A stretch of 40,660 nucleotides of DNA, taken from a virus. The DNA lies in the IMG/VR virus record IMGVR_UViG_3300020180_000005, positions 1 to 40,660 of that record. One strand, 5' to 3'. Position 1 is the stretch's first letter. Each line of letters opens with the position of its first letter. The notes below the pieces were generated by a model, which was not told where the DNA came from, did not search any database, and saw only the letters and a program-made list of their open reading frames with translations. Positions 16,976-40,660 of the stretch are shown here, piece after piece. The position numbers and the translations under genes were made by a program.

Positions 16976-17922
16976 TTTTTAACCATTATATCTAAAGTAA
17001 ATTTACTTGCATGTTTATTAATCATATTAGGGCTTACCTTCATAATTTTATTATTTTTTAGTAAATTATCATAATCAATAAACTGACCTACAGTCTCCTG
17101 CAATGCCCCTATTCTACGCACAACCGGCACGCAGCCTGCGTATTGTGCTTTAACGGCGGCTAGGCAGAATAACTCTGACTCCGCTTTATTTAGAGGGTGG
17201 ACCCAGTATTCTGCTTCCCAATACTTAGCGCAAAGATCGTTATTTGATAACCTACCTAAGACCTCAATACCATCTTGCTTCATCAAAGACTCCATCTTAA
17301 TTTTCCAGGCCTTACCAGTTGGGCTATTTAGGCCACGCTCCATAAAGTCCCAGCCGTATGTAATCCATAAAGTTGTAAGTTTAAGCTTATTTTTTAACTC
17401 TGGCCATCTGATTAATAATTCTTCTAGGCCGCGGTCGTAGCTAGATGTATAAATAGCAGTGCCTTTCACCTTATCTGTTTTTGCTAAATCCATGCGCTTA
17501 GTATCTATCCCTAGATAAATAGGAAAGATTTTTCTATTACTATTACTTATTTTATCGTTATGATAGTTAGAAATTGTTACCACACCATCAATGTCTCTTA
17601 ACTCTGTATCGGTCCAAGACTCTATTTCGGTGGTGAGGTGAAACACTTTTTTAGCATTAATGCTTTGCTCTAAAATATTTTTGGCTTTAAAACTTATAAA
17701 TACATCCCTGTATTCAAATGGTTTAAATTCGCGGTGGTCGCTATATTTAACATTATCAAAAACGCCGTGGATACCGTTATGATAGATAGTAACCTCATGC
17801 TTTCGCTCAGTCATAGCTTTTGCAAATTGTATAAGACTTTCCTCGCTGCCACCAATACCGGTTTCTATATCCGCTGCTGTCCATCCGCCAAAGACTAAGT
17901 TTGTATAGATATGAATTGTCAT
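16945..17922 (-). CDS. Glycosyltransferase, GT-B/GT4-like (325 aa)
   Basis: Transfers a sugar from a nucleotide donor. The N-terminal fold has GGWTAADIETGIGGSEESLIQFAKAM, the acceptor-side Gly-rich loop shared with the C-terminal half of the large transferase upstream (IGGSEGMCIQMARGLA). The donor side has IYTSSYDRGLEELLIRWPELK, then VLGRLSNNDLCAKYWEAEYWVHP and ESELFCLAAVKAQYAGCVPVV, a GT4-type E-x7-E-like region. ATG 17922 (MTIHIYTN) lies two bases after the preceding stop; the longer frame from 17964 starts inside the methyltransferase. Acts in the cytoplasm, probably on a virion glycan. Confidence 0.87.
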   Translation of the reverse strand: MTIHIYTNLVFGGWTAADIETGIGGSEESLIQFAKAMTERKHEVTIYHNGIHGVFDNVKYSDHREFKPFEYRDVFISFKAKNILEQSINAKKVFHLTTEIESWTDTELRDIDGVVTISNYHNDKISNSNRKIFPIYLGIDTKRMDLAKTDKVKGTAIYTSSYDRGLEELLIRWPELKNKLKLTTLWITYGWDFMERGLNSPTGKAWKIKMESLMKQDGIEVLGRLSNNDLCAKYWEAEYWVHPLNKAESELFCLAAVKAQYAGCVPVVRRIGALQETVGQFIDYDNLLKNNKIMKVSPNMINKHASKFTLDIMVKKWEQLITLKS

Positions 17923-17923
17923 T

Positions 17924-18541
17924 TTAAAGATTTGATTGAAAAATAATATAAAGCTCACCCTCAACAGCTACAGCCTCTTGAATTATGCCGTACTTGGCGC
18001 AAAGCTCTTCTAGTTCGCCCAACGTGAACAACCTTACGTGTTCTTCGTTTCGCTCTGCGTCTTTTGTACCAAACTGTCCAAAAGCATCTGGCGTTGTAAT
18101 TAATACAAATCTGCCTAATTTGGCTAATTTCTCAACTACCACTTCAGCATCAGTTACATGTTCTAAAACCTCCATCATGCTAACCGTATCAAACTTATGA
18201 AACGTTTTATAGTCTTCTAACATGGTAGTTATATAAGTTACGTCGTAATCCACTTCGCGCGCCTTTTCTTTAGCAGCCTCAATAGCATCAGCGCTAGGAT
18301 CAATTGCAACGCAGTCAATTCCATCAGCGGTTAAAGTTAGTGCTGTATATCCATCCTTGCAGCCAACATCAAGATGAGTTCTTGCATCAAGTTTTAAGAC
18401 GTGCCCGCGTACCCAATCAACACGTTTTAAAACTCGGTGAGCATATAATGAACTTGTTAATGGCATGAAATTGCCATCACTTTTAATATAGTATTCACGA
18501 TTTTTAGCGACATCAAGAAACTTTGTGTTTTTAGTTTTCAT
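17924..18541 (-). CDS. Class I SAM-dependent methyltransferase (205 aa)
   Basis: Motif I is HLDVGCKDGYTAL, which binds S-adenosylmethionine. CVAIDPSADAIEAAKEKA supplies the acidic residue for the ribose, and DTVSMMEVLEHV is the post-motif II region seen in UbiE/UbiG-like small-molecule or sugar methyltransferases. The FVLITTPDAFGQFG segment, followed by HVRLFTLGELEELCAKYG, matches families found in O-antigen and surface-glycan clusters. It overlaps the preceding gene by 11 bases. A sugar O-methyltransferase is the most likely role. DNA methylation is unlikely because no NPPY/DPPY motif is present. Confidence 0.87.
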   Translation of the reverse strand: MKTKNTKFLDVAKNREYYIKSDGNFMPLTSSLYAHRVLKRVDWVRGHVLKLDARTHLDVGCKDGYTALTLTADGIDCVAIDPSADAIEAAKEKAREVDYDVTYITTMLEDYKTFHKFDTVSMMEVLEHVTDAEVVVEKLAKLGRFVLITTPDAFGQFGTKDAERNEEHVRLFTLGELEELCAKYGIIQEAVAVEGELYIIFQSNL

Positions 18542-18998
18542 TAGGTTCGAAATATTGTTTAAAATAAAGTGTTACATTAGCTACTCCCCGACCTTGTAAA
18601 TCATCCACTTTGTGATGCTTACGAATAATCACGGGAATAACGTAATTTGGTTTTTTTGTTATAAATTCGTACATGTTATCTAGATTTTCTAGAACACGCT
18701 CAGTCCTTTCGTGCATAATAGCAACGCTAGGTATCTTTTTTTTCGCTGATTTCATCGCTAATTTAATAGGATTCTCGAATATATCTTTTTTGTTTAAATG
18801 CATATCCCAAATTGATTTAGCGTCACGGCCGAAAGCTTTCCCTACTAACACATTAGCTTCTACTCCGGCATAATCCGTGAATACAACCCCATTTTCAGGT
18901 AGGGTTTTATATGTAGCAATTAGACAATTAATATAATCCGCTCCGCTAGGGTCAATTAGCTTTTTAATGATTTGCTCTCTTGTTATTGTTTTGTCCAT
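18531..18998 (-). CDS. Hypothetical protein in the sugar-modification island (155 aa)
   Basis: No family recognised. The protein is soluble and alpha/beta: DPSGADYINCLIATYKTLPENGVVFTDYAGVEANVLVGKAFGRDA in the first half and NYVIPVIIRKHHKVDD, then VANVTLYFKQYF near the end, with Lys-rich helices between (LAMKSAKKKIPSVAIMHERTERV). It overlaps the epimerase gene by 16 bases and the methyltransferase gene by 11, so it is cotranscribed with them. A role in sugar modification is inferred from the neighbours alone. Confidence 0.72.
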   Translation of the reverse strand: MDKTITREQIIKKLIDPSGADYINCLIATYKTLPENGVVFTDYAGVEANVLVGKAFGRDAKSIWDMHLNKKDIFENPIKLAMKSAKKKIPSVAIMHERTERVLENLDNMYEFITKKPNYVIPVIIRKHHKVDDLQGRGVANVTLYFKQYFEPNEN

Positions 18999-19810
18999 GG
19001 TGGTTTAAAATATAGGGGGTCTAAATTTAATATTCTCTTCATTTTTTCAGGATCACCAACCCACATACCTGGTTCAAATTGTCTTTGTGCATAACGGTTA
19101 AACTTCTGTATTTGCTCTAATTCTAGTTGCTCACGCTCTAGCTCTTCAGGGCTGTCTTTAAGCAACTTTAATATTATTTCATGCGCAGATTGTTGCTCGC
19201 CTGTGCATACATTGATCACCTCGCCGTATAGATGCGGCGCATGCATTAGCCTTTCTACGGCCCAACAAACGGCCTCAACAGGTATAAAATCTTTAACGTT
19301 TTGTGGATTAGCAAATCTACCAGCGTGATGTGCAACACTTTTAAAATTACGGCCACCTTCTCCGTAAACTGCAAACAACCTAAGAGTATTTACCCCTAGT
19401 TTTTTTGCATATAAAGTAACCATCAGTTTGGCAAGACCGTAGGTGTCAATAGGCTCACAAATCATTTCCTCATTGGCAGGCTCATATTTAATACCGTATT
19501 CGTTATGACTACCCAAGTTTATAACTTTAACACCAGTATCAGCGCATTCTTTTAGAAATTGGCAAGACCATAAAGCAAATTCTAGATGCGCAGGATCATG
19601 GATATCTGCCAACCTTGGCCATGCTGTGTGTATGACCATATCAGGCTTAATATTATTGCCGTCTCGGTCCATGTCCTTTAGTCTAGTAAAATCTTCAGCT
19701 AAAAATTCCTGCTTAGGTAAAGACTCTACATGATAACCAAGACCGCCCAAATGTGACATTAAATGATGTCCGATAAATCCTGTGCCACCTGTTATTAATA
19801 CATTCTTCAT
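18983..19810 (-). CDS. NAD-dependent sugar epimerase/dehydratase (SDR, 275 aa)
   Basis: Extended short-chain dehydrogenase acting on nucleotide sugars. The Rossmann motif GGTGFIGHHL starts at residue 8. The active-site pattern is INLGSHNEYG followed by YGLAK (Tyr/Lys pair), with MVIHTAWP before them and LRLFAVYGEGGR after. VNVCTGEQQSAHEIILKLL is the usual C-terminal element of GDP-mannose/UDP-sugar epimerases. Length is slightly short for the family. It overlaps the upstream transferase gene by four bases. It would supply a modified donor sugar to the neighbouring transferases; which sugar cannot be read. Confidence 0.9.
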   Translation of the reverse strand: MKNVLITGGTGFIGHHLMSHLGGLGYHVESLPKQEFLAEDFTRLKDMDRDGNNIKPDMVIHTAWPRLADIHDPAHLEFALWSCQFLKECADTGVKVINLGSHNEYGIKYEPANEEMICEPIDTYGLAKLMVTLYAKKLGVNTLRLFAVYGEGGRNFKSVAHHAGRFANPQNVKDFIPVEAVCWAVERLMHAPHLYGEVINVCTGEQQSAHEIILKLLKDSPEELEREQLELEQIQKFNRYAQRQFEPGMWVGDPEKMKRILNLDPLYFKPPWTKQ

Positions 19811-20667
19811 AATTTTTCGTATAGTTCAGATAATATAATTTGTTCTTGCTTGGCAGCCTGCGCTGTCATAGACATTTTATAAACTTTCTTATTACCAGAA
19901 ATTGAAATTTTCTGCCTCTCATGGTCATTTTTTAAATAGTAATCAATTTTAGTTTTTAAATCTTCAAAATTATCCCAATAAACAAAATCAACACCATCTA
20001 TAAAGCCAAGTTTTTCTAGTTCGTCTGTTTTAATTCGCTTCTGCAAACACAACTTCCCAAAGCCCAAAGCTTCAAAAAAGCGTATCCCAGTAATAATATC
20101 CCACGGTTCAGTCGGTTGATTCACTATAATATTAGAATTAGACATAGCATGCTTATACTCTTCTTTTGTTTCAGCCTTTCCAGTAAAAGCTTTATAGTTT
20201 TCGTTTAATAACTTCCATAATTCTATACGTGCATGACTATTAGCATTTCCAATCATAGCTACATCAAGGTGTAGTTTCTCGCCATCACATATAAATAAAT
20301 CATTATATGTACTTGGCATCCAAAAACTTTTAACCCCAAATTTAGCCAATAATTTGACCCCGTGCAGATAATTCATACTAAATATTAAATCGGACTTGCG
20401 GGCAATGTTAACGCTTCGCTCAGCACCACCCGGCATGTGCGCATCATAACTCCAGAATACTGTAGGCTGTATGTATCTTGGAATATTACGGCTGAAATCC
20501 TCGCTGCAATCTACAATAAATATAAAATCAAAACTTTTATCTAATTCTTGCGGTATTAATTTACGGTCAAATTTAATTACATCGTGCCCGTTATTTTCCC
20601 ATGCGTCGGCTACCCATTCGGCCATCGAGCCGTACCAACCAAAATAACCAATCATCGCTATTTTCAT
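19807..20667 (-). CDS. Glycosyltransferase of the CgeB/GT-B type (286 aa)
   Basis: The N-terminal MKIAMIGYFGWYGSMAEWVADAW begins a GT-B half with a Gly/Tyr-rich loop. The middle has PTVFWSYDAHMPGG, DLIFSMNYLHGVKLLAKFG and FWMPSTYNDLF. The donor half includes DVAMIGNANSHARIELWKLL, NSNIIVNQP and GIRFFEALGFGKLCLQKR, the R-x-FEALGxG motif of glycosyl transferase family 1_2 or CgeB-like proteins. ATG 20667 lies two bases after the preceding stop and is preferred to the in-frame start at 20700, which only extends into that gene. Part of the sugar-modification run. Confidence 0.86.
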   Translation of the reverse strand: MKIAMIGYFGWYGSMAEWVADAWENNGHDVIKFDRKLIPQELDKSFDFIFIVDCSEDFSRNIPRYIQPTVFWSYDAHMPGGAERSVNIARKSDLIFSMNYLHGVKLLAKFGVKSFWMPSTYNDLFICDGEKLHLDVAMIGNANSHARIELWKLLNENYKAFTGKAETKEEYKHAMSNSNIIVNQPTEPWDIITGIRFFEALGFGKLCLQKRIKTDELEKLGFIDGVDFVYWDNFEDLKTKIDYYLKNDHERQKISISGNKKVYKMSMTAQAAKQEQIILSELYEKL

Positions 20668-20668
20668 G

Positions 20669-21310
20669 TTATGGCTCCGGTTTATATCCCTGTCCTTCAA
20701 ATTCTATTTCTAAATCACCAGCAGATTTTGCAAATTCAATTGCAAAGGCAGGATAGAAATGAATATTAGGTAAATAATTTATAAATATATATCCCACCTC
20801 TTCGGCTACAGTGCGAAGAGATTGTTTGTTGTACATCGACTTGTGTTGGCCGTACTCATTGCGCTGAGACCCAAATAACAGTCTTGTTGCCCATTCAGGT
20901 TCTGTAGCGTATAGGGCAACTGTACCGTCTAAATCAGGGACGTCAAGATGTAGGATTCCGCCCGGTTTTAGTTTTGTTAACCAATATCTTAAAGCATGTT
21001 GACCCTGCTCAAATGTCAAGTGTTCAAATACTTGTACTAAACGTAATTCGTCAATTGTATTATCTTCATATGGTAAATTGAAAACATCACCGTATTTATC
21101 TACTACAACACAAGTCTTGTGTAGTGTACCGCCCATTATTAATCCTTTATCAACATGACGGGTGTAATAATTATCTACTGTAGTAGAATTTTGTTCCACA
21201 ATGTCGGGATTATTATCGGCTAATTGATGTTCTGTAATAGGTACATCCACGTTATCATAGCCTTCTAAATAGACAGTACCGCAGCCTAAATGCACTTTTA
21301 TCTTATTCAT
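20669..21310 (-). CDS. SAM-dependent methyltransferase, glycan-cluster type (213 aa)
   Basis: The start KVHLGCGTVYLEGYDNVDV is the motif I arrangement of small Methyltransf_11-like proteins common in surface-sugar clusters. It is followed by DVFNLPYEDNTIDELRLVQVFEHLTFEQ and LKPGGILHLDVPDLDG, the standard order. A Tyr-rich C-terminal part has HKSMYNKQSLRTVAEEVGY. Substrate is probably a sugar on a growing glycan. It overlaps the preceding GT2-like gene by eight bases, and the following glycosyltransferase begins two bases after its stop, supporting one unit. Confidence 0.85.
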   Translation of the reverse strand: MNKIKVHLGCGTVYLEGYDNVDVPITEHQLADNNPDIVEQNSTTVDNYYTRHVDKGLIMGGTLHKTCVVVDKYGDVFNLPYEDNTIDELRLVQVFEHLTFEQGQHALRYWLTKLKPGGILHLDVPDLDGTVALYATEPEWATRLLFGSQRNEYGQHKSMYNKQSLRTVAEEVGYIFINYLPNIHFYPAFAIEFAKSAGDLEIEFEGQGYKPEP

Positions 21311-22013
21311 ATTTTTGAGCGAAAGTAAAATCTAAAGACATGTCATTATACGGGAAAAGAAAACGCTCTTGCCCTGCGTCCCCGCCCCATTTATACTTAT
21401 AACGTTTTAAAGCTTTTTTAAGCCTTTCGTTATCATTTCCAATAGTAGCACTATAAGGTGGATGATAACAAAGTGTTTGCGATGGCTCTATCCATTTAAA
21501 TCCAGCTAATATGCATCGATGCCAAAAATCGCGTTCTACAAATTCGCACGGGAATTGTTCATCAATTCTGCCGACGGTTTCAATAACACCTTTTTTTATC
21601 ATAAAACAGGCTGGGTCCATTTGGTTATAATTACTTGTTAGAGTTCCGCTATAACTTTGTAGGCCATAATTCTTTTTAAATTGTTCTAGATCTCGCGTTA
21701 CATGCAGGGTAGAAACACCAGCATTAGGGTTATCATTTAACGTGTTGATCATGATATCAATAGCGTTGAAATCCAGCTGAACGTCGTTAGCCATTATCAT
21801 CAAAAAATCGTATTTTTTGCCTCGCCATTTGTCTAAAAAAACATTCCACACGCCAGCGACTCTTGACTCATATCGTTTGCTATCAACATCGACCTTGACG
21901 CAGTGATTTAGGCTTATTATAGATTTATGAGAAATACGAGTCATCTCTTCTTGTTCTTTTGTTTCTATTAATGCAGGCAAAAGCACCCTTATGCATATCA
22001 GCTTATTATCCAT
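21303..22013 (-). CDS. GT-A glycosyltransferase, family 2-like (236 aa)
   Basis: A GT-A type protein: MDNKLICIRVLLPALIETKEQEE, then KKYDFLMIMANDVQLDFNAIDIM, in which the NDV element takes the place of the usual DxD metal site, and QMDPACFMIKKGVIETVGRIDEQFPCEFVERDFWHRCILAG, the family 2 acceptor region with the FVERDFWHR variant of the ED-W-R motif. ATG 22013 lies two bases after the previous stop and is preferred to 22037. It is shorter than typical GT2 enzymes, and the first strand lacks the usual V-I-I-P-x-Y-N start, so activity is probable rather than certain. Confidence 0.8.
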   Translation of the reverse strand: MDNKLICIRVLLPALIETKEQEEMTRISHKSIISLNHCVKVDVDSKRYESRVAGVWNVFLDKWRGKKYDFLMIMANDVQLDFNAIDIMINTLNDNPNAGVSTLHVTRDLEQFKKNYGLQSYSGTLTSNYNQMDPACFMIKKGVIETVGRIDEQFPCEFVERDFWHRCILAGFKWIEPSQTLCYHPPYSATIGNDNERLKKALKRYKYKWGGDAGQERFLFPYNDMSLDFTFAQKYE

Positions 22014-22014
22014 G

Positions 22015-24519
22015 TTAGTCGTTATTAAAAAATGCATCCCATTGCTGGGCTAAAGTGTCAATATTATATTCTTTACGAGCCCACTCTATACCCAGGCTGC
22101 GTTTTTTCTCTAATTCATCTTGGTGCGTTAAAGCGTGAACTACAGCACTTACAATTTGCAATTTATTTGTTTTATAACTATATCGGCTGTTTACTGTTTC
22201 TTTTAATGCCGCAAACGGAGTGCATACAGGCACGGCACCAAGCGCGTGCGCCTGCATTGCCGTAATACAGCTTATCTCGTAAAACTCAGTAGGATAGAAC
22301 CAGATCGCACTTTGTGCAAATTCTTTATACAACTCGTCTTGCGAAATACGCCCTAGCTCACGAACGTTTGGAGTTTTAGCAATTAGCTCCATTAGCTCAG
22401 CCCTAAAAGCTTTCATTTCTTCGCCTCGTTGTTTGCTTTGTGGGTGAGATAAGTTATTTTCCATAATTGCATCAAAGGTGTTTAGACCATAGTAAATATC
22501 TAAGTGAGCCTCTGGAACTTTTTCTACAATTTTAGGCCACATCTTTAAAGCGTCTAGTAACCCGCGATCATAACTAGATGCGTAAATAACTTTGTAAGGA
22601 TCTCTCGCACCTGCATTTTTGTCAGCGTACTCAATTGCGTGTTTGTTTAATGCGTTACGTGTTTTAAAAAAAATACTATCATTAGTAATGCCATGCGCTT
22701 GTTTTAGAGATTCTATATGGGCATCTGATAGGGCTATAACTTTGTTCGGTGCCGTAAAGGCTATTAAAGGCAGATCTCCGTAACCTGTATCATGTAACCA
22801 CAAATACTGTTTGATAGCATTTATGATTGGTGTATCACCTTGGTAGCTGCCAAATAAAGAAGGTATACGCAAAGAGATAAAAATATCACACTTGGTATCA
22901 GGATTCCATTTACGATGGTCTAAATATAGAACATCATCAAACGTTTTGCCATCTGAATCACCGCAATAATTAAAGACAACTACTTTATTACCTAAAGCAG
23001 CCAGGCCTCGAGCCATTTGGATGCACATGCCCTCGCTGCCCCCAATGCCTTTGTTAATATCAGAATGCCCATCCCAGGGTTCGAAGTGTCCGCCTGCATA
23101 GAAAACAATAGATTTAATACCGCTAAGTACAGTCTTATTAGACTTACGTTTGACGTCGTATTTGATTTCTTTAATAAAGCGCCGCACTACTGGGTCGTCT
23201 CTTAGGTCAATAGGTATCGATGAGATGATTGACTCTAACTGATTAAATTGACTTGCGTATTGCATATACACAGTTAGCGCTTTTATTCCCTCAATAACAG
23301 CAATGCGCCTTTTATCTTGTTCAAGCTTGGTTAATTCGGATCTTAATTGTGTATTACTTGGCATAATTGACAGCAATTCTTTTGCTACTTGTATAGCTTC
23401 ATCTACTTTATTTAACGCCACTAAAGCTTGCAATTTAATTCGTCTAGGCACAATCGTATAATCCATTTCGTTTGTAACAGCAATGTTTTTCGGGATTCCT
23501 CTAGCAATCACACGATCAGAGTGCCTTATAGCAGATTCCCAATCGCCTGCGTATATAAATAGTTCTGCTAGTAATAAATCGCCGTCCGATAGTTGTGGTA
23601 ATATCCTTTTCAGTTGGTACGCCGCGCCCATCGCTTTATCATTAGCCTCAGTGGCTAAATAAGCCTTAGCTAATTTTTGATAAATATCATAGAGCAACTC
23701 GGCTGGTTTATTGTCTAATTTTTTGACATTAATAAGATACTCATACCATTGAATAGCGAGCTCCCACTCCCCATACTCAAAATGATCAAAACCAAGATTT
23801 CGAATTAATTTATCGCTTACATTCTGTAACCCAATACGCTCAATAGCTCTGGTCATAATTAAGTTATTACGCCTGTTTTCGGGTTTAGCATGGCCGCCGT
23901 CTGAACTATCAAACGGGCTTCTTTTATGAACAACTTTTAAAACGTCTTGCTCTCCTGTCAGTTGTGCCAGAGTTACAATTTTGGCATCACTTTCAAAGTT
24001 ATAAGTTTCATGAACTGGATCAGTCCATCTACCTGAGTGTTTTAGATTTATCAATCTCTCCCTTACTTGCGTAACTGCTCTTAACCCGTTAATAGCTTCT
24101 GCATAATCGTAAGTAATTAAAACTGCCGATAAATCAGCAGCGCACATTTTAGCTGTGATGCTTGGAATTATATTAGGGTTAATTATGATGTCGTCGGTGT
24201 CTAACCAAAAAGCAGCGCTTGCGCCAAGCTTTTTGGCCATATCAAAGGAGTCCTGTCTTGCTTTGTCAAACTCAGCTAAAACCTTTCTACCATTTACAAA
24301 AACAAAATCGTAGTCTTTACCTAGCTCTTTTTTTGAAATCTCATAAGGTCTACCTGTTTTCTTACACCACTGCTCCCACAATTCAACAGTTTGGTCGGTA
24401 GAGCCCGTGTCTTGGAGTATATAAAAATCAAAAACACCTGCTGTCGAATCAAGCATGCGTTCAATAATATCTGATTTATCTTTTGCGATTACGCAAAGTG
24501 CGGTAGTTGGGTTGGTCAT
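22015..24519 (-). CDS. Bifunctional glycosyltransferase: GT2 + TPR-like helices + GT4 (834 aa)
   Basis: Residues 1-250 form a GT2 domain (TTALCVIAKDKSDIIERMLDS, DTGSTDQTVELWE, and AAFWLDTDD with the metal-binding DxD). Residues of about 250-420 are TPR-like helical repeats (ELLYDIYQKLAKAYLATEANDKA, AGDWESAIRHSDRVI). The C-terminal third is a GT4-like GT-B domain (GIGGSEGMCIQMARGLA, VIYASSYDRGLLDALKMWP, ELGRISQDELYKEFAQSAIWFYP). It opens the sugar island. Such double transferases can add two successive sugars. No Shine-Dalgarno; the predicted RNA start lies at or just upstream of the ATG. Confidence 0.9.
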   Translation of the reverse strand: MTNPTTALCVIAKDKSDIIERMLDSTAGVFDFYILQDTGSTDQTVELWEQWCKKTGRPYEISKKELGKDYDFVFVNGRKVLAEFDKARQDSFDMAKKLGASAAFWLDTDDIIINPNIIPSITAKMCAADLSAVLITYDYAEAINGLRAVTQVRERLINLKHSGRWTDPVHETYNFESDAKIVTLAQLTGEQDVLKVVHKRSPFDSSDGGHAKPENRRNNLIMTRAIERIGLQNVSDKLIRNLGFDHFEYGEWELAIQWYEYLINVKKLDNKPAELLYDIYQKLAKAYLATEANDKAMGAAYQLKRILPQLSDGDLLLAELFIYAGDWESAIRHSDRVIARGIPKNIAVTNEMDYTIVPRRIKLQALVALNKVDEAIQVAKELLSIMPSNTQLRSELTKLEQDKRRIAVIEGIKALTVYMQYASQFNQLESIISSIPIDLRDDPVVRRFIKEIKYDVKRKSNKTVLSGIKSIVFYAGGHFEPWDGHSDINKGIGGSEGMCIQMARGLAALGNKVVVFNYCGDSDGKTFDDVLYLDHRKWNPDTKCDIFISLRIPSLFGSYQGDTPIINAIKQYLWLHDTGYGDLPLIAFTAPNKVIALSDAHIESLKQAHGITNDSIFFKTRNALNKHAIEYADKNAGARDPYKVIYASSYDRGLLDALKMWPKIVEKVPEAHLDIYYGLNTFDAIMENNLSHPQSKQRGEEMKAFRAELMELIAKTPNVRELGRISQDELYKEFAQSAIWFYPTEFYEISCITAMQAHALGAVPVCTPFAALKETVNSRYSYKTNKLQIVSAVVHALTHQDELEKKRSLGIEWARKEYNIDTLAQQWDAFFNND

Positions 24520-33792: not shown

Positions 33793-33868
33793 TCCTTCAT
33801 TTCCGCTCGGAAATTTAGAATAACACTTAGCAACAAGGCCACCTCCGGGTGGTTTTGTTGTTTGTTTT
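33793..33868 (+). ncRNA. Candidate small RNA of about 75 nt
   Basis: Downstream of the promoter lies a hairpin with ATTTCC/GGAAAT (33799-33814). A second, terminator-type hairpin follows (33832-33859), with a U-rich tail. No ORF is present. The RNA would end just before the -35 box of the first early promoter, so it is separate from the early mRNA. Function unknown. Confidence 0.5.
33832..33868 (+). terminator. Rho-independent terminator ahead of the early promoter
   Basis: AACAAGGCCACC pairs with GGTGGTTTTGTT (12 pairs with two G-U) around a TCCG loop, and a T-rich tract (GTTTGTTTT) follows. It lies eight bases before the -35 box at 33877. Confidence 0.75.
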
Positions 33869-33876: not shown

Positions 33877-33905
33877 TTGACATATCTAAACAGCTATACT
33901 ATAAT
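33877..33905 (+). promoter_or_regulatory. First rightward (early) promoter, consensus sigma-70
   Basis: TTGACA (33877-33882), 17 bases, TATAAT (33900-33905): a perfect match to the bacterial housekeeping consensus. Drives the gene at 33933 and those after it. Confidence 0.92.
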
Positions 33906-33910
33906 ATCTC

Positions 33911-33926
33911 ATAATTGTTATTTTAA
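33911..33926 (+). repeat. Shared early leader element ATAATTGTTATTTTAA, copy 1
   Basis: Sixteen bases starting at the predicted RNA start, identical to 37360-37375 after the second early promoter. ATAA-TTG-TTAT within it is a short inverted repeat, so it could be an operator, or an mRNA 5' element aiding translation without a Shine-Dalgarno. Confidence 0.75.
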
Positions 33927-33932: not shown

Positions 33933-34193
33933 ATGAAGGAGATTAAGTTCACTTCTCAATTTATTTTTAAACCTGATCAACTTGGACAGCTTCGTGCTTA
34001 TTGGTTTGATTTTGGTACATCAAAGCGTAAAATTGAGCTAGAAATTGAACTCAAGTATGCTGCTGTCTTATTTAATTTAGTAGAGGGCTGGGTAGAGCGT
34101 TATGATAAGGTTCCAGGTATTTTGACTTTGGATTGGTATATAAATAATAACGGCGCACTTTTATCTAAGCATAAAATTAAAGAAGAATTATGA
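33933..34193 (+). CDS. Hypothetical early protein (86 aa)
   Basis: The first gene after the consensus promoter. Its sequence (MKEIKFTSQFIFKPDQLGQL, then RAYWFDFGTSKRKIELEIELKYAAVLFNLVEGWVERYDKVP) has no family I recognise. It is a small alpha/beta protein with many aromatic residues and no signal peptide or membrane helix. Its stop overlaps the next ATG by four bases, coupling it with the Rad52-like gene, so a role in recombination or in modulating the host early in infection is plausible but not shown. Confidence 0.78.
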   Translation: MKEIKFTSQFIFKPDQLGQLRAYWFDFGTSKRKIELEIELKYAAVLFNLVEGWVERYDKVPGILTLDWYINNNGALLSKHKIKEEL

Positions 34194-34864
34194 AACAAAA
34201 TAATACTGTAGACTTACCTAATTTAATTTTATTAAAACAGCCATTTGGTGACCATGAAATATCATGGAAAATTAATAACTATAATTCAGGTAAAACCAAG
34301 GCTATGATCACATTTCATGTGGATGCAAGAGTAGTACAAACTAGACTTAATGACGTTTTTGGCGAACTAGAATGGTCATTTGAATGGAAGACCATTACAG
34401 ATGTAATAGTACACGGGAGTTTAAAGGTTAATTTATGTACAAAAGAGGATGTTGGCTATAGTAACGGGTCTGACGATAAAGAACCGTTAAAATCTGCCGT
34501 TAGTGACGCTCTGAAGCGCTGCGCGGTACATTTAGGCGTTGCACACTATTTATATCAATTGCCTACATTGTGGATAGTTCTAGATGAACCAAGCCAGAAG
34601 TATTTAACTAAAAGGCAAGATGAGGAAATCCTTAATTGGTATAAAAAGAATATTAATACATCTAAAACAACCACCTTATTACCTTTTGCAACTGAGGAAG
34701 TAATAGATCAGATCATGGAGGCAATGGCTTTAGATCGTGAAACTAAATCTATCTACGCCGGAAAATATAATTTAACTAAGGAACAAATAGCAAAGCTTAC
34801 CGCCGCTAGGGCAACGATTAAGGCCTCGATTGATAACGCAGCGCTGGTAGAAGGGATTTTATAA
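34190..34864 (+). CDS. Rad52/Rad22-like single-strand annealing protein (224 aa)
   Basis: Anneals complementary single strands in phage recombination. The domain runs from about residue 20 to 125: ISWKINNYNSGKTKAMITFHVDARVVQTRLNDVFG is the V-D-A-R-x-V-x-x-R-L-x-x-V-F-G pattern. KEPLKSAVSDALKRCAVHLGVAHYLYQLPTLWIVLD is the conserved K-x-A-V-S-D-A-L-K-R-x-A-V-x-x-G-V-x-x-Y-L-Y segment of the PF04098 type. The C-terminal part (about 150-224) is helical and may bind SSB. SSB and RusA are encoded in the same unit; no exonuclease partner was recognised. Confidence 0.9.
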   Translation: MKQNNTVDLPNLILLKQPFGDHEISWKINNYNSGKTKAMITFHVDARVVQTRLNDVFGELEWSFEWKTITDVIVHGSLKVNLCTKEDVGYSNGSDDKEPLKSAVSDALKRCAVHLGVAHYLYQLPTLWIVLDEPSQKYLTKRQDEEILNWYKKNINTSKTTTLLPFATEEVIDQIMEAMALDRETKSIYAGKYNLTKEQIAKLTAARATIKASIDNAALVEGIL

Positions 34865-34873: not shown

Positions 34874-35230
34874 ATGAAAATAATAAATCCTAAAACAGGC
34901 GAGATTGTTACTAATGAATCCGAAAGGTTAGTAATTGTTGATGCTTACAAAGAATATAAACTTAAAATTAAAGAACTTGAACAGGTGACTGAAGCTTTAG
35001 AAGAATTGTTGCAGCCCCACATTGACCTAGCTATGGCAAATGGTGAAAAAGAGCTGGGAGCATTTACTATTGTTTTTGGCGCTAGACGGTTTAGCGTAGA
35101 TCTATTTAACGAAGCCGCGCCAAGTTTTACTAAAGAACAACGCGCAACTCTTAAAGAACAAATAGCCGAAATTGAGGCTCAATTCAAAGCACCATCTAAA
35201 CCTTATCTAAAATTTAAACAAATTATTTAA
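34874..35230 (+). CDS. Hypothetical protein of recombination module (118 aa)
   Basis: A coiled N-terminal half (VIVDAYKEYKLKIKELEQVTEALEELLQPHIDLAM) is followed by a strand-helix element (LGAFTIVFGARRFSVDLFNEAAP) and a Glu/Lys helix with SKPYLKFKQII at the end. Proteins with this pattern often lie beside annealing proteins in phages, but I cannot assign a function. It starts nine bases after the preceding stop without a Shine-Dalgarno, and one base separates it from the first octapeptide-repeat gene. Confidence 0.75.
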   Translation: MKIINPKTGEIVTNESERLVIVDAYKEYKLKIKELEQVTEALEELLQPHIDLAMANGEKELGAFTIVFGARRFSVDLFNEAAPSFTKEQRATLKEQIAEIEAQFKAPSKPYLKFKQII

Positions 35231-35231: not shown

Positions 35232-35879
35232 ATGTACAAAATAACAAAAGACGGCGTAGCGTTAGATCCTAAACTTTATACGATTGATAAAGTTAATAAA
35301 ACTTTTGCGTCAAAAGAAGATGGCTTAGTAATAGATTTTGCAGGGAAAAATGGTTGGCTTTTTAGAATCGGTTATAGCTGTAAAATCACTACTGGTGAAG
35401 ACTGTTTTATAGATGCAAGGGGCGAGTGCATAATCACTACTGGTGATGGCTGTACTATAGAGGCCGGTCGCGACTGTAATATAACAGCAGATCATGGCTG
35501 TGTTATACACACATATCTTGACTGCATAATATGTGTTGGTGAACGCTGTACTATAGCCGCCGCCCCCGGCTGTAATATAACTACTGGTGATGGTTGCACC
35601 ATAGACACTGGGAGCGGCTGCAATATAACCGCAGGTGATCAGACTGTTATTAGAGCTAATTGGAACTCAGTTATAACAGGCGGTAAAAATTGTGTAGTGA
35701 GTAAACGTTATGGCAACGAAGTTATCAAGCTTATTGCTGGGCAAACGATTAAGCTGAATGATCACATGACAGAAGGCTACGAAGTTGTAAAACCAATAGA
35801 AACTATTGAAATAGGAGGCCTGAAATTCAACAAAGAAGAAGTAGAGGATTTTCTTAAAAACCTTAAACCAATTAATTAA
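35232..35879 (+). CDS. Octapeptide-repeat (Cys-headed) solenoid protein, copy 1 (215 aa)
   Basis: Three parts: a conserved N-terminal cap (1-49, MYKITKDGVALDPKLYTID), eleven eight-residue units starting with Cys (from CKITTGED at 50; consensus C-x-I-x-x-G-x-x), then TVIRANWN, SVITGGKN, CVVSKRYG and a conserved C-terminal module (NEVIKLIAGQTIKLN ... EIGGLKFNKEEVEDFLKNLKPIN). Units alternate between I-T-T-G and I-D-x-G types, so the structural step is probably 16 residues (two strands per turn), with Cys stacked as ladders. No signal peptide or membrane helix, so it is expected in the cytoplasm. Function unknown. Confidence 0.85.
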   Translation: MYKITKDGVALDPKLYTIDKVNKTFASKEDGLVIDFAGKNGWLFRIGYSCKITTGEDCFIDARGECIITTGDGCTIEAGRDCNITADHGCVIHTYLDCIICVGERCTIAAAPGCNITTGDGCTIDTGSGCNITAGDQTVIRANWNSVITGGKNCVVSKRYGNEVIKLIAGQTIKLNDHMTEGYEVVKPIETIEIGGLKFNKEEVEDFLKNLKPIN

Positions 35880-36527
35880 ATGTACAAAATAACAAAAAAC
35901 GGCGTAGCGTTAGATCCTGAACTTTATACAATTGATGAAGCCAATAAGACTTTTGCATCTATCGAAAATGACTTAGTATTAGATTTCACAGGTAAAGATA
36001 GTTGGATTTTTAGAATTAAGGGTAAATGTGAAATCATTGCTGGTAATGGTTGTACTATAGATGCCGACTATAGCTGTAATATCACAACGGGTAATTGTGC
36101 AGTTATTAGAGTCTGTGATAATTCAACTATAACTGCTGGTGACCGCTGTAACATAGACACACACCATAACTGCACAATTACTACTGAAGATGACTGTATT
36201 ATAAATACATGGGGTAATTGCACAATTACTACTGCCAATGGCAGTAGTATATATGCTGGCGCTCAATGTAATATAACTACAGGTCATAACGCTGTTATTA
36301 GAGCTTATGGAAATTCAGTTATAACAGGCGGTGAAGGTTGCGCAGTGATTAAACGTGATACTGTTGAGGTTATCAGACTTGTTGCTGGGCAAACGATTAA
36401 GCTGAATGGTGGCTATGGTGTTGAAGGCTACGAAGTTGTAGAACCAGAAACCATTGAAATAGGAGGCTTGAAATTCAACAAAGAAGAGGTAGAAAAATTA
36501 CTTAAAAACCTTAAACCAATTATTTAA
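35880..36527 (+). CDS. Octapeptide-repeat solenoid protein, copy 2 (215 aa)
   Basis: Starts at the base after copy 1's stop. It has the same cap and C-terminal module, with 11 units before AVIRAYGN. The fourth and fifth units (AVIRVCDN STITAGDR) resemble the terminal AVIRAYGN SVITGG pair, as if an end piece had been copied inside. Several units have lost the leading Cys (AVIR, STIT, SSIY). Its C-terminal module is slightly shorter (VEPETIEIGG, one duplet lost) and ends KLLKNLKPII. It lies just before SSB. Same unknown function as the other copies. Confidence 0.85.
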   Translation: MYKITKNGVALDPELYTIDEANKTFASIENDLVLDFTGKDSWIFRIKGKCEIIAGNGCTIDADYSCNITTGNCAVIRVCDNSTITAGDRCNIDTHHNCTITTEDDCIINTWGNCTITTANGSSIYAGAQCNITTGHNAVIRAYGNSVITGGEGCAVIKRDTVEVIRLVAGQTIKLNGGYGVEGYEVVEPETIEIGGLKFNKEEVEKLLKNLKPII

Positions 36528-36539
36528 TTATTTAAACAC

Positions 36540-36962
36540 ATGTTCAACGATATAAACAAAATTCAATTATTAGGCAATCTTACTCGAGACCCAGAACTGA
36601 AAACCACTGCTGGGGGTACTGCTGTGCTTAATTTAAATTTAGCGACTAATCGCCAATATAAAAAAGTTGAAGAGTGGGTTTCTGAGGTTGAATATCATAA
36701 CGTAGTAATATTTGGTTCAACTGCGACAAAATTAGAGCAATACCTTTATAAAGGTTGCCGTGTTTTAATTGAAGGTAGAGCAGTTACTCGTACCTGGGAA
36801 AAAGACGGGGTTAAACATTACAAAATGGAAATAATTTCGGATGAAGTGCATTTGTTAGGGCGGTATGTAGAAAAAACTAAGCAAGCCGAGCCTGCCAGCG
36901 CGTCTCAGCTTGAACTTAATATTAATGACGTTGTAATTGATCCAGACGAACTACCTTTTTAA
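36540..36962 (+). CDS. ssb: Single-stranded DNA-binding protein (140 aa)
   Basis: Protects single strands in replication and recombination. The OB-fold is complete: INKIQLLGNLTRDPELKTTAGGTAVLNLNLATNR, then VEYHNVVIFGSTATKLEQYLYKGCRVLIEGRAVTRTW and KMEIISDEVHLLG. The C-terminal tip DPDELPF is close to the DDDIPF docking peptide used to recruit partners, so it may recruit host or phage repair enzymes. Length is short but typical for a phage. It is encoded between the two groups of solenoid genes and works with the Rad52-like protein. Confidence 0.96.
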   Translation: MFNDINKIQLLGNLTRDPELKTTAGGTAVLNLNLATNRQYKKVEEWVSEVEYHNVVIFGSTATKLEQYLYKGCRVLIEGRAVTRTWEKDGVKHYKMEIISDEVHLLGRYVEKTKQAEPASASQLELNINDVVIDPDELPF

Positions 36963-36963
36963 T

Positions 36964-37218
36964 ATGAATAACGTACAACTACAACATATCAAAAAATTGG
37001 TAAAATACTTAGAATCTATCCATGAAACACCTAAGATGGGTAGGTACGGCCGGGCAATTTATCTTGAACTTCACGAGCAGTCTGTTTGGCTTTTAGGCCA
37101 AGCAGCCTTACGTAAAAAGTTGCTTGAGCTAGATTATGTCGACGGCAAAATAAATGTATATAAGCTGACTGAGCAAGGTCATGCGTTTTTAATTGAATAC
37201 AATTCCTTGCCCAATTAA
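36964..37218 (+). CDS. Winged-helix-like small protein (84 aa)
   Basis: ATG 36964 follows one base after the SSB stop; a longer frame from 36937 would overlap SSB and is not needed. The sequence MNNVQLQHIKKLVKYLESIHETP, then AALRKKLLELDYVDGKINVYKLTEQGHAFL has a winged-helix-like pattern, with a final V-Y-K-L-T-E-Q-G-x-x-F-L hairpin as in many transcription regulators (xYxLTxxG). A regulator of the second early promoter just downstream is possible. The first part lacks the usual three clear helices, so the call is tentative. Confidence 0.75.
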   Translation: MNNVQLQHIKKLVKYLESIHETPKMGRYGRAIYLELHEQSVWLLGQAALRKKLLELDYVDGKINVYKLTEQGHAFLIEYNSLPN

Positions 37219-37225
37219 CCCTAGT

Positions 37226-37317
37226 GGGAGCGAACCGCTGTCTGGTTCGCCCTCAGCTCCCTGCGGTTGGTCTTACGTTCTACAAAAAGTAGAATGCACA
37301 CTATACTGACCGTACGG
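37226..37317 (+). other. Hairpin-rich intergenic region before the second early promoter
   Basis: GGGAG/CTCCC (37226-37230, 37257-37261) encloses CGAACC/GGTTCG (31-36, 44-49), giving a strong stem of 11 pairs with a bulge. A second hairpin TTCTAC/GTAGAA lies at 37278-37294, and a perfect palindrome CCGTACGG lies at 37310-37317. There is no long T-run, so it is not a classical terminator; it may mark an mRNA 3' end or hold an operator for the promoter at 37326. Confidence 0.55.
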
Positions 37318-37325
37318 AATTGAGG

Positions 37326-37354
37326 TTGACACATTTTAATAACTATACTATAAT
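37326..37354 (+). promoter_or_regulatory. Second rightward promoter, consensus sigma-70
   Basis: TTGACA (37326-37331), 17 bases, TATAAT (37349-37354). Perfect consensus and spacing, and the sequence AACTATACTATAAT resembles the first early promoter (CAGCTATACTATAAT). It drives the genes from 37381 through the solenoid array. Confidence 0.92.
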
Positions 37355-37359
37355 ACTTT

Positions 37360-37375
37360 ATAATTGTTATTTTAA
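37360..37375 (+). repeat. Shared early leader element ATAATTGTTATTTTAA, copy 2
   Basis: Identical to 33911-33926 and at the same place relative to its promoter (starts five bases after the -10 box). Confidence 0.75.
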
Positions 37376-37380
37376 AATAA

Positions 37381-37671
37381 ATGTGGACACAAACTCCAAA
37401 TTCATATTATATCCAAACGTATTTCGGTATTAAATCGATGTCAGGTTCGTGGGTGAGCGCGTCCTCAGAAGATGAAGCTTTAGAAATTTATATACGCTCT
37501 CAGCTAATAATATTAGATGGCGACGAGGAAGCTTTAGTTCAATGGCAACTTATTCAGCAACCCCAGGTAACTGATGTAGATTATGGTGAAACCGACGATG
37601 ATCATTACAGCACTAACGTAATCGGAGTGCCGTCGTACGGCAGTTCTTTAAAACAAAAATATGAAAATTAA
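37381..37671 (+). CDS. Hypothetical early protein (96 aa)
   Basis: MWTQTPNSYYIQTYFGIKSMSGSW, then SSEDEALEIYIRSQLIILDGDEEALVQWQLI and an acidic DVDYGETDDDHYS. No signal peptide, membrane helix or known motif. It is the first gene under the second early promoter, behind a leader that carries the shared 16-base element, and it overlaps the following gene by 11 bases. The acidic, aromatic composition fits a small host-takeover protein in principle, but there is no direct evidence. Confidence 0.75.
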   Translation: MWTQTPNSYYIQTYFGIKSMSGSWVSASSEDEALEIYIRSQLIILDGDEEALVQWQLIQQPQVTDVDYGETDDDHYSTNVIGVPSYGSSLKQKYEN

Positions 37672-37876
37672 GTATGTAATTTCTAATAACTATAAAGATT
37701 TTTTAGAGTATTGCCGCATGAACGGCCTAGACAAACGAAAGGTTAAATATATAGTGAAATTAGAAGACTTATATTATGCTAAAGAAAACGAAGTTGCCGA
37801 ACACGGTCTTTATTGGAAGAATCCAGTTTGGGGCCAATGGGCAGATTTACTTAAGAAAATTAAACAAGATAATTAA
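37661..37876 (+). CDS. Small early phage protein (71 aa)
   Basis: MKIKYVISNNYKDFLEYCRMNGLDKRKVKYIVKLEDLYYAKENEVAEHG, then LYWKNPVWGQW. The layout (aromatic strand, F-L-E-Y-C-R-x-N-G-L, K-Y-I, then a Gly-x-Tyr-Trp-x-N-P ending) reminds me of a small phage family that follows a helicase- or P-loop-like strand order, but no catalytic motif is present and I do not assign a function. It is coupled to the preceding gene by overlap. Confidence 0.75.
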   Translation: MKIKYVISNNYKDFLEYCRMNGLDKRKVKYIVKLEDLYYAKENEVAEHGLYWKNPVWGQWADLLKKIKQDN

Positions 37877-37888
37877 TTTAAATTTAAC

Positions 37889-38455
37889 ATGTACAAAATA
37901 ACAAAAGACGGCGTAGCGTTAGATCCTAAACTTTATACGATTGATAAAGTCAATCGTACTTTTACATCAGAAGAAAATGGCTTAGTAATAAATTTCACAG
38001 GTGAGAATAGATGGTTTTTTAAAATTATTCATAGTTGTCAAATCACTGCTGGTGATCGCTGTATTATAGATGTTGGTGTTGAATGTATTATAACTACTGG
38101 CAATGACTGTACAATTTTAGCTGGTGATCGCTGTATTATAATTGTATGTAATGATTGTACAATTGCAACTGGCGTTGGCTGTGTTATAAATGCCGGCAAT
38201 GACTGTACAATTTTACCTATTGGTCGCTGTATTATTACTACCGACAATAACTGTACAATCGCAACTGTCAGGGGCTGTACTATAGACACTGGCAGCAGTT
38301 GTAATATTACTACAGGAAATGGCGCCGTTGTTCACACCAGCTGGAACTCAATTATAACTAGCGGCAAATATTCCACAGTGACTAGATATGATACCGTCGA
38401 GACAAAAACATTTATCGGAAAATTATTAAACCAATTAATTAAATGTACAAAATAA
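37889..38455 (+). CDS. Octapeptide-repeat solenoid protein, copy 3, C-terminal module replaced (188 aa)
   Basis: It has the family cap followed by twelve Cys-headed units (from CQITAGDR), then AVVHTSWN, SIITSGKY and STVTRYDT. The usual C-terminal module is missing: after VETKTFIGK the DNA jumps to the family's final bases in another frame, giving LLNQLIKCTK, and the stop lies 13 bases inside copy 4. This looks like an internal deletion with frame change. Copy 3 also has an even number of full units where most copies have odd, suggesting half a turn was gained or lost. It may be a decaying or altered copy. Confidence 0.8.
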   Translation: MYKITKDGVALDPKLYTIDKVNRTFTSEENGLVINFTGENRWFFKIIHSCQITAGDRCIIDVGVECIITTGNDCTILAGDRCIIIVCNDCTIATGVGCVINAGNDCTILPIGRCIITTDNNCTIATVRGCTIDTGSSCNITTGNGAVVHTSWNSIITSGKYSTVTRYDTVETKTFIGKLLNQLIKCTK

Positions 38456-38946
38456 CAAAAAACGGCGTAGCAGTAGATCCTAAGCTTTATATGATAGATG
38501 AAGCCAATCAAACTTTTACATCTAGCGAAAATGACTTAGTATTAGATTTTGCAGGTGAAGATAGTTGGATTTTTAGAATTAAGTATGGCTGCACAATCAC
38601 TACTGGCAATCACTGTTTTATAGATGCATGGGACAGCTGCATAATTACTGTTGGTGAACGCTGTACTATAGATAGTGGGAGCGATTGTAATATAACCGTA
38701 GGTGATCAGACTAGTATTAGAGCTCATGGAAATTCAGTTATAACAGGCGGTGAAAATTGTGTAGTGACTAGAAATGATACCAACGAGGTTATCAGACTTG
38801 TTGCTAAGCAAACGATTAAGCTAAATAGCTACATGTCAGAAGGCTACGAAGTTGTAAAACCAATAGAAACTATCGAAATAGGAGGCCTGAAATTCAACAA
38901 AGAAGTAGTAGAGGATTTTCTTAAAAACCTTAAACCGATTAATTAA
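38443..38946 (+). CDS. Octapeptide-repeat solenoid protein, copy 4 (167 aa)
   Basis: Cap MYKITKNGVAVDPKLYMID, five Cys units (CTITTGNH, CFIDAWDS, CIITVGER, CTIDSGSD, CNITVGDQ), then TSIRAHGN, SVITGGEN and CVVTRNDT and the intact C-terminal module ending LKNLKPIN. It starts within the last codons of copy 3 (13-base overlap). Its stop TAA is followed at once by ATG of copy 5. It has three 16-residue turns fewer than copy 1 (48 residues shorter), so the array lost or gained whole turns. Confidence 0.85.
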   Translation: MYKITKNGVAVDPKLYMIDEANQTFTSSENDLVLDFAGEDSWIFRIKYGCTITTGNHCFIDAWDSCIITVGERCTIDSGSDCNITVGDQTSIRAHGNSVITGGENCVVTRNDTNEVIRLVAKQTIKLNSYMSEGYEVVKPIETIEIGGLKFNKEVVEDFLKNLKPIN

Positions 38947-39498
38947 ATGTACAAAATAACAAAAAACGGTAAGCCACTAGATCCCAAACTTTATACAATT
39001 GATGAAGCCAATAAGGCTTTTATATCAAAAGAAGATTGCTTAGTATTAGATTTTGCAGGTGAAGATGGTTGGGTTTTTAGAATTAAGTATAACTGCACAA
39101 TCACTACCGGCGATTATTGTTTTATAGATGCATATGGTGGCTGTATTATCACTGATGGTGATCGCTGTACTATGGACACTGGCAGCGGTTGTAATATAAC
39201 TGCTGGTGATGGTTGTACTATGGATACAGGTTATAAATGTCACATCTCTACTGGTCATAACGCTGTTATTAGAGCTTATGCGGATTCAGCTATAACAGGC
39301 GGCGAAAATTGTGCAGTAATTAGAAATGATACCAACGAAGTTATCAAGCTTGTTGCTGGGCAAACGATTAGGCTGAATAGCCGTGATGTTGAAGGCTACG
39401 AAGTTATAGAACCAATAGAAACTATCGAAATTGAAGTCAAGAAGTACAACAAAGAAAAGATAGAGAAATTTCTTAAAAATCTTAAACCAATTAATTAA
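38947..39498 (+). CDS. Octapeptide-repeat solenoid protein, copy 5 (183 aa)
   Basis: Seven Cys units (from CTITTGDY to CHISTGHN), one 16-residue turn more than copies 4 and 6. The cap has KNGKPLDPKLYTID and a unique EDCLVLDFAG. The end is the most divergent intact one: the usual EIGGLKFNKEE is EIEVKKYNKEK. A CTMDTG unit occurs twice, separated by CNITAGDG, which points to duplication of one turn. Starts directly after copy 4's stop. Confidence 0.85.
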   Translation: MYKITKNGKPLDPKLYTIDEANKAFISKEDCLVLDFAGEDGWVFRIKYNCTITTGDYCFIDAYGGCIITDGDRCTMDTGSGCNITAGDGCTMDTGYKCHISTGHNAVIRAYADSAITGGENCAVIRNDTNEVIKLVAGQTIRLNSRDVEGYEVIEPIETIEIEVKKYNKEKIEKFLKNLKPIN

Positions 39499-40002
39499 AT
39501 GTACAAGATAACAAAAGACGGCGTAGCGTTAGATCCTAAACTTTATACGATTGATAAAGTCAATCGTACTTTTACATCAGAAGAAAATGGCTTAGTAATA
39601 AATTTCACAGGGAAAAGTGATTGGCATTTTAGAATCAGAAATAACTGCACAGTCACTGCTGGTGATGAATGTTTTATAGATGCATGGGGCGATTGCACAA
39701 TTACTACTGCTAATCGCTGTACTATAAACACTGGGAGCGGCTGTGATATAACTACAGGTGATTACGCTGTTGTTGTAACTTGTGGAAATTCAACTATAAC
39801 AGGCGGCGAAAATTGTGTAGTAATTAGACGTTATACCAACGAGGTTATCAAACTTATTGCTGGGCAAACGATTAGGCTGAATGGCTACAGGACAGAAGGC
39901 TACGAAGTTGTAAAACCAATTGAAACTATTGAAATAGGAGGCTTGAAATTCAACAAAGAAGAAGTAGAGGATTTTCTTAAAAACCTTAAACCAATTAATT
40001 AA
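39499..40002 (+). CDS. Octapeptide-repeat solenoid protein, copy 6 (167 aa)
   Basis: Five Cys units (CTVTAGDE to CDITTGDY), then AVVVTCGN, STITGGEN, CVVIRRYT and a normal C-terminal module. Its first 110 or so bases are nearly identical to those of copy 3 (one change seen, AAA to AAG at codon 3), while the repeats differ, so the cap has probably been exchanged by gene conversion. Starts right after copy 5's stop and is followed directly by copy 7. Confidence 0.85.
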   Translation: MYKITKDGVALDPKLYTIDKVNRTFTSEENGLVINFTGKSDWHFRIRNNCTVTAGDECFIDAWGDCTITTANRCTINTGSGCDITTGDYAVVVTCGNSTITGGENCVVIRRYTNEVIKLIAGQTIRLNGYRTEGYEVVKPIETIEIGGLKFNKEEVEDFLKNLKPIN

Positions 40003-40464
40003 ATGTACAAAATAACAAAAGACGGCGTAGCAGTAGATCCTGAGCTTTATATGATAGATGAAGTCAATGGGACTTTTGCATCTAGCGAAAATGGCTTAGT
40101 AATAGATTTCACAGGTAAAAATGGTTGGCTTTTTAGAACCAGAAATAACTGCACAGTCACTACTGGTGTTAACTGTTTTATAGACACTGGTAGCAACTGT
40201 AATATCTCTACTGGTGATCGGACTGTTATTAGAGCTCATTGGAACTCAGATATAACCGGCGGTGAGAATTGTGTAGTAATTAGACGCGATACCAACGAGG
40301 TTATCATGCTTATTGCAGGGCAAACGATTAAGCTGAATGATCACATGACAGAAGGCTACGAAGTTGTAGAACCAATAGAAACTATCGAAATAGGAGGCTT
40401 GAAATTCAACAAAGAAGAGATAGAGAAATTACTTAAACAATTTAACCAATTAATTAATTATTAA
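40003..40464 (+). CDS. Octapeptide-repeat solenoid protein, copy 7, shortest (153 aa)
   Basis: Only three Cys units (CTVTTGVN, CFIDTGSN, CNISTGDR) lie between the cap and TVIRAHWN. The C-terminal module is intact up to NKEEIEKLLK and then ends QFNQLINY instead of NLKPIN. The NDHMTEGYEVV part matches copy 1 in DNA, although copy 1 is the most distant, which again suggests exchange between copies. Two bases separate its stop from the junction gene. Confidence 0.85.
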   Translation: MYKITKDGVAVDPELYMIDEVNGTFASSENGLVIDFTGKNGWLFRTRNNCTVTTGVNCFIDTGSNCNISTGDRTVIRAHWNSDITGGENCVVIRRDTNEVIMLIAGQTIKLNDHMTEGYEVVEPIETIEIGGLKFNKEEIEKLLKQFNQLINY

Positions 40465-40466: not shown

Positions 40467-40660
40467 ATGGAAACACAAAAACAACCGTTTAGCCCAGGTT
40501 TACGAGCTAAGATTAAAATATTTACTAAGTTGAACATGGTCTTCTATTCCAGGCAGGAATTAAATGACTACGTTTTAAGGTTAAAATCCTTACTAGCACA
40601 AGCTTATGAACAAGGTGAATGTAATTTTGAATTACATAACCAGGTTGTAACTCTTTTAGA
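40467..40660 (+). CDS. 5' part of junction-spanning small hypothetical protein
   Basis: ATG 40467 begins METQKQPFSPGLRAKIKIFTKLNMVFYSRQEL. The frame runs off the window at 40660 and continues at base 128, ending at 165-167, for 77 residues. The second Met (40536, MVFYSRQEL) could be an alternative start. No family recognised. It is the last gene before the small early genes at the left end of the window, showing they belong to the same rightward unit. Confidence 0.8.
   Translation, partial: METQKQPFSPGLRAKIKIFTKLNMVFYSRQELNDYVLRLKSLLAQAYEQGECNFELHNQVVTLL
40534..40660. repeat. Right copy of 127-bp terminal direct repeat (circular join)
   Basis: Identical to bases 1-127. See the left copy; together they close the genome at 40,533 bp. 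Confidence 0.95.

Follow-up and report, generated by a model that had tools for sequence, protein, structure and literature searches.

Why would a phage with a compact genome devote a large part of it to several genes encoding one and the same kind of short-repeat protein? The question is raised by a stretch of viral DNA of 40,660 nucleotides (IMG/VR record IMGVR_UViG_3300020180_000005), analysed here in its entirety and referred to below as the window. An exact direct repeat of 127 bp is found at both ends of the window and indicates that the phage genome is complete, with a size of 40.5 kb. Seven open reading frames, all intact and all on the + strand, form two blocks (35232-36527 and 37889-40464) and sum to 9.6% of the genome, in agreement with the original prediction, which had put their share at about a tenth. 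This array is a real feature: an extreme and fast-changing expansion of an unnamed family of phage solenoid proteins. As to its role, the reading we favour, at a probability of about 0.42, is that the array would supply early intracellular solenoid proteins whose binding neutralises or diverts a host component that varies, the likeliest being a defence or DNA-processing factor; both host-factor binding and its target are things that we only infer.

The seven genes share a common architecture consisting of an N-terminal cap, a series of eight-residue repeats or octads and a C-terminal module, the octads being counted from the cap to that module. Copies 1 (35232..35879) and 2 (35880..36527) form the first group and encode proteins of 215 aa with 13 octads each. 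The second group opens with copy 3 (37889..38455, 188 aa), which carries a cap and 14 octads, has lost most of its C-terminal module and has its stop codon within the start of copy 4 (38443..38946, 167 aa, 7 octads). It continues with copies 5 (38947..39498, 183 aa, 9 octads), 6 (39499..40002, 167 aa, 7 octads) and 7 (40003..40464, 153 aa, 5 octads), each of them, as well as copy 4, with cap and C-terminal module. The open reading frames and their alignment bear out a family of seven with a shared cap, which is 49 residues long and common to all copies, and a C-terminal module in six. The tight spacing that had been described is also observed, since TAA is directly followed by ATG at four of the five within-group junctions (1/2, 4/5, 5/6 and 6/7). 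Neither Rfam RNAs nor tRNAs were found in the window.

The octad, C-x-I-x-x-G-x-x, begins after the cap and is strictly phased. Cysteine occupies a single eight-residue phase in all copies, and shuffled sequences matched the observed count in none of 10,000 trials for copies 1-5, in 3 of 10,000 for copy 6 and in 10 of 10,000 for copy 7. Cys1 and Ile3 are nearly fixed (position entropies of 0.89 and 0.55 bits, respectively) and positions 2, 4, 7 and 8 are variable (2.7-3.2 bits). Metal binding via the cysteines was considered and rejected: Cys is replaced by Ala, Thr or Ser in 10 of the 61 window octads, which suits packing in a core better. Two types of unit had been reported to alternate and do so, position 4 being Thr in 23 of the 31 odd octads and mostly Asp or Arg in the even ones. 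This difference implies that the predicted solenoid has two unlike sides, one being probably Thr-rich and the other Asp-rich if a turn is assumed to span 16 residues. Among the six complete copies the number of octads is always odd and changes by two, that is, by 16 residues, and relatives in other genomes carry from 3 to 23 octads in odd as well as even counts. The claim that the repeat region varies in steps of 16 residues therefore holds among copies 1, 2, 4, 5, 6 and 7 and fails as a general rule, given the relatives of either parity and the 14 octads of copy 3. The step is local rather than a rule of the fold, and would reflect the alternating Thr/Asp units of the window phage.

What structure do these repeats adopt? 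Copy 1 was modelled by AlphaFold2 from an input of eight close sequences, with a pLDDT of 90.7 and a pTM of 0.85. In this model a short strand recurs approximately every eight residues from the cap through the C-terminal module and is followed by a final helix. Copy 1 is confidently predicted to be a beta-solenoid, as had been anticipated. Foldseek returned no match better than E 0.2 against the PDB and two matches below 0.001 against viral predicted structures, one of which is from Pseudomonas phage EL. A structural second look listed pentapeptide-repeat proteins, adhesin heads and pectate-lyase-like helices among its families, with Z values of 8-11; this ranking agrees with the predicted solenoid and says nothing further.

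The pentapeptide-repeat proteins MfpA and Qnr, and likewise Ocr, are DNA mimics that occupy DNA-binding enzymes, and the window proteins could conceivably act in the same manner, as had earlier been guessed. MfpA, AlbG and EfsQnr are among the better solenoid matches of the second look (Z 9-10), the likeness of the pentapeptide-repeat proteins MfpA, AlbG and Qnr lying in a regular beta-solenoid of very short repeats, and the early location of the array would fit. However, their period is 5 and not 8, the overall structural match is weak, as the best Foldseek hit in the PDB already indicated, and the Pfam model PF00805, with its repeat A(D/N)LXX, gave no match to the window copies at E up to 1. 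The net charge of the solenoid is just 0 to -8 over 32-104 residues, and relatives mix Lys and Asp at variable position 4. Charge lends the guess no support and we consider DNA mimicry improbable.

Other short-repeat folds were examined and set aside. Left-handed hexapeptide solenoids of the DapD-type acyltransferases also form short-repeat solenoids and display weak sequence similarity to copy 1, but their period is 6 instead of 8, their enzyme domains are absent from the copies and the scores fall below curated cut-offs (Hexapep_2, 15.1 of 27 bits; DapD, 26.9 of 441.5 bits). DUF7666 proteins, which appeared among the BFVD matches, correspond to a loose structural repeat match only, and Pfam DUF7666 was absent from the window copies and the relatives scanned. 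An ice-binding T-x-T face, prompted by the CTITT octads, was rejected as well (Pfam Ice_binding, 14.6 of 28.7 bits); the octad period is unlike that of insect antifreeze proteins.

Is this family restricted to the window phage? Octad-pattern scans argue otherwise: no fewer than 16 further viral contigs and four metagenome-assembled genomes contain relatives, most of them with octads of the CTFKTG type (family members from IMG/VR and metagenome-assembled genomes: L029, L034, L049, L059, L098, L119, L129, L141, L145, L146, L147 and L149). These relatives were picked by their octads alone, and caps and C-terminal modules were compared afterwards. Taken separately, both parts proved homologous to their window counterparts when profiles were aligned by hhalign (99.5% and E 2.5e-22 for the cap, 99.2% and E 6.7e-20 for the C-terminal module; each alignment takes in a short octad stretch), which makes the homology secure. 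The window copies carry the family cap pattern ...NG..LD..LY..D....TF.S.E..LV.DF and the octad pattern C-x-[IF]-x-[TA]-G-x-x in a constant eight-residue phase from cap to C-terminal module, and the family module CV.VRRD..EVI......IKLN.....GY closes all of them except copy 3, from which most of it has been lost.

Within this unnamed CTFKTG solenoid family, the relatives thus have the same cap, Cys at octad position 1 and the C-V-x-x-R-R-D..E-V-I..I-K-L-N module, but differ from the window copies by a core Phe in place of Ile, by Lys, Asp or Asn at position 4 and by either octad parity, and several of them continue into an additional C-terminal domain, absent from the window copies. The relatives also have one or two copies per genome against seven in the window. 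Contigs of the relatives, some of them fragments, have the cap once or twice, and the window's seven is the largest number; seven copies are exceptional among relatives. This is a recurrent phage family, often encoded beside recombination genes, for which we found no trustworthy model match in Pfam, PHROG, NCBIfam or PADLOC and no paper in literature searches, nor did a well-characterised family of known function emerge.

Further searches with the window proteins retrieved one close relative among viral contigs and nothing in phages; neither a plasmid search with the solenoid protein of a sister phage (L009, see below) nor a scan of genome contigs with the cap alone yielded any. Most contigs listed by the octad-pattern scan contained low-complexity Cys/Gly/Pro frames and are not relatives. 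An Enterobacter phage match, antisense to annotated genes, and a Vibrio phage match with E 0.3 were both taken as chance. Patescibacteria and the lineage of an archaeal bin were considered as hosts and dismissed, the cap being too sporadic in either: it was present in one of 287 genomes of the phylum and in two of 61 relatives of the bin, all of which were already known.

The genomic setting indicates when the array is likely to be expressed. Two consensus sigma-70 promoters on the + strand, each with a 12/12 match and a spacer of 17, are located ahead of operon 1 (33877..33905) and of operon 2 (37326..37354). Both are accompanied by a shared downstream motif (33898-33926 and 37347-37375) for which no further site exists in the window. 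A terminator-like hairpin of 15 pairs on the + strand (33829..33862), recognised by consensus match only, separates the virion-gene side from operon 1. This operon comprises, in order, an 86-aa ORF, a gene for an Erf-like ssDNA-annealing protein (34190..34864; phrog_1097, E 4.6e-28), a 118-aa ORF (34874..35230; no PHROG match) ending 1 base before copy 1, copies 1-2 and, directly 3' of copy 2, a gene for a single-stranded DNA-binding protein or SSB (36540..36962; phrog_44, E 6.2e-37), all on the + strand. Operon 2 starts with a 96-aa ORF and a 71-aa ORF and proceeds with copies 3-7. The virion-side genes (terminase, portal, head, tail-measure and lysis) are found on the - strand and the early region on the + strand. 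The perfect -35 and -10 boxes, the Erf and SSB genes beside copies 1-2 and the strand opposite to that of the virion genes point strongly to early, intracellular expression, in support of the early, non-virion location proposed before.

The same setting speaks against a virion or surface protein, such as a fibre-like spacer or an adhesin head, as the array's product. Comparable solenoids do occur in tailspikes and adhesin heads, and baseplate PHROG matches together with a match to the UspA1 head would agree with such a role. The PHROG hits reach no better than E 0.004, however, which is weak, and the genes lie at a distance from the virion genes and on the other strand, in an early operon that also encodes Erf and SSB, so that a structural role seems very remote indeed.

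A more serious alternative is that the solenoids are accessory factors of phage recombination or replication, binding Erf, SSB or a host nuclease or recombinase and thereby tuning recombination. Other recombination systems of phages, too, come with small accessory proteins. Copies 1-2 lie in an operon with Erf and SSB; relatives adjoin Erf, Sak4, DnaB, primase, exonuclease or SSB-like genes in several unrelated contigs; and two phages that share with the family the accessory C-terminal domain only, TJE1 and CRP6, have this domain beside ERF. On the other hand, the larger block of copies 3-7 belongs to a separate operon, and the relatives in L034, L040, L059 and L141 adjoin no recognisable recombination gene, the neighbourhood being a trait of the window and of several relatives, not all. 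In addition, a phage-internal partner would not explain why the array changes faster than its neighbours. We regard this role as possible, though doubtful.

How fast, and by which route, has the array diverged? Copies 3 and 6 have 104 identical cap bases in common and agree over 35 consecutive variable sites of the cap, a stretch that none of 5,000 permutations reached, which implies that segments have been exchanged between copies. In the C-terminal module the exchange test gave a global P of 0.06, which is no more than suggestive of exchange there. Comparison with the sister phage L009 extends this picture. The flanking genes compared are 96-98% identical to those of the window in protein and 94-97% in DNA. 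The L009 solenoid gene is a mosaic that shares no more than 66% identity with any window copy; over its 5' part the nearest sequence is the copy 6 region (87% nt), over its 3' part it is copy 5 (88%). The upstream neighbour of this gene encodes an otherwise different protein with the same C-terminal tail, a further sign of exchange. The array thus appears to change much faster than the neighbouring genes, with the caveat that the L009 contig stops just upstream of its solenoid copy, so that the true orthologue of the compared copies may be unsampled. Values of dN/dS between copies lie for the most part at 0.3-0.7 and exceed 1 in isolated pairs of caps. They do not establish positive selection, since relaxed constraint combined with recombination could give the same divergence.

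These data bear on a near-neutral expansion, in which tandem duplicates would have been retained and scrambled by recombination between repeats, the extra copies being of little benefit. The loss of the C-terminal module from copy 3, the moderate dN/dS, the direct repeats that favour changes in copy number and the one or two copies that suffice in relatives would all fit. Yet the seven frames are open, the caps intact and the junctions tight, odd octad parity is retained wherever the C-terminal module is intact (six copies), and the array takes up a costly tenth of a compact genome; we consider this explanation unlikely, more so than a part in recombination.

A nearly fixed core, variable positions and length, several diverged early copies, exchange between them and near-static flanks are best fitted by binders that track a target, and we return to the reading preferred at the outset. 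Each protein would consist of a small N-terminal beta cap, about 5 to 14 octads with a Cys/Ile core, presenting one Thr-rich and one Asp-rich face, and a closing C-terminal module. Early transcription would start from strong host-type promoters, in the case of copies 1-2 jointly with the genes for phage recombination. The core would stay constant while surface positions and repeat number vary, and copies would swap segments by recombination, the phage having its own Erf annealase. The proteins would then bind a host component that varies and is encountered early in infection, neutralising or diverting it, and several diverged copies would broaden the range of targets. Against this reading, a PADLOC search gave no trustworthy hit among known defence-related proteins. 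It is conceivable, if rather less probable, that recombination maintains a repertoire, the array reshuffling caps, repeat number and surface faster than the genome, with sister phages carrying different sets against varying host defences. Repeat-based recognition repertoires follow a comparable logic, the array being used here by a virus against its host.

The promoters before both groups, the Erf/SSB neighbourhood, the exchange between copies and the divergence from the sister phage are new here. The extreme expansion makes the evolution of the family readable, with a fixed core, a varying surface, swapped segments and nearly unchanged flanks. If an anti-host set is indeed involved, the array would be a manageable starting point for studying an as yet unnamed class of early phage proteins.

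The accessory C-terminal domain carried by several relatives is also encountered in Dulem virus 31, Tetrasphaera phage TJE1 and Riemerella phages CRP5 and CRP6, where it sits in the early part of the genome, close to genes for Erf or an exonuclease; its predicted fold had no good PDB match in a fold search. The repeats that precede it differ, being of nine residues in Dulem virus 31, of about 20 residues (LP-GF-PTVGG) in TJE1 and LRR-like in CRP6. Repeat solenoids look interchangeable ahead of this domain, an arrangement that would fit a binding role for the solenoid.

The window carries an exact direct terminal repeat of 127 bp, positions 1-127 being identical to positions 40534-40660, and is therefore a complete phage genome, either circularly closed or terminally repeated. 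Besides the solenoid copies, this genome encodes a further low-complexity protein, the product of a 107-aa ORF (1049-1372) made up mostly of short Gly/Asp-rich repeats of the GDGSG type, for which a search of phage records returned no matches. Glycosyltransferase and nucleotide-sugar epimerase genes are set within the virion-gene strand at 16945-24519.

In the contig of the sister phage (L009), a 108-aa protein (15-341) encoded upstream of the solenoid gene is different from the product of that gene and ends in a C-terminal tail, NKKEIENLLKTLKPIN, also found in the window copies; this segment may represent either a common C-terminal tail or an exchange of 3' ends. Two Cys-octapeptide genes occur in tandem on contig L149 (4780-6458), following a Sak4 gene and an ORF that appeared CsrA-like by eye. 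This contig is binned with the archaeon Methanofastidiosum and looks like a bacteriophage contig misplaced in that bin. The Cys-octapeptide cap at 13101-13298 of G011, the record behind L072, contains two in-frame TGA codons and would correspond either to a pseudogene or to a phage reading TGA as an amino acid.

In Tetrasphaera phage TJE1 (L151), which shares only an accessory C-terminal domain with some relatives of the family, within 2598-3405, the annotated orf50 lies antisense over a sense-strand repeat frame, LPEGFNPTVGG..., that runs uninterrupted with orf51; the real gene at this location is probably the sense frame rather than orf50.
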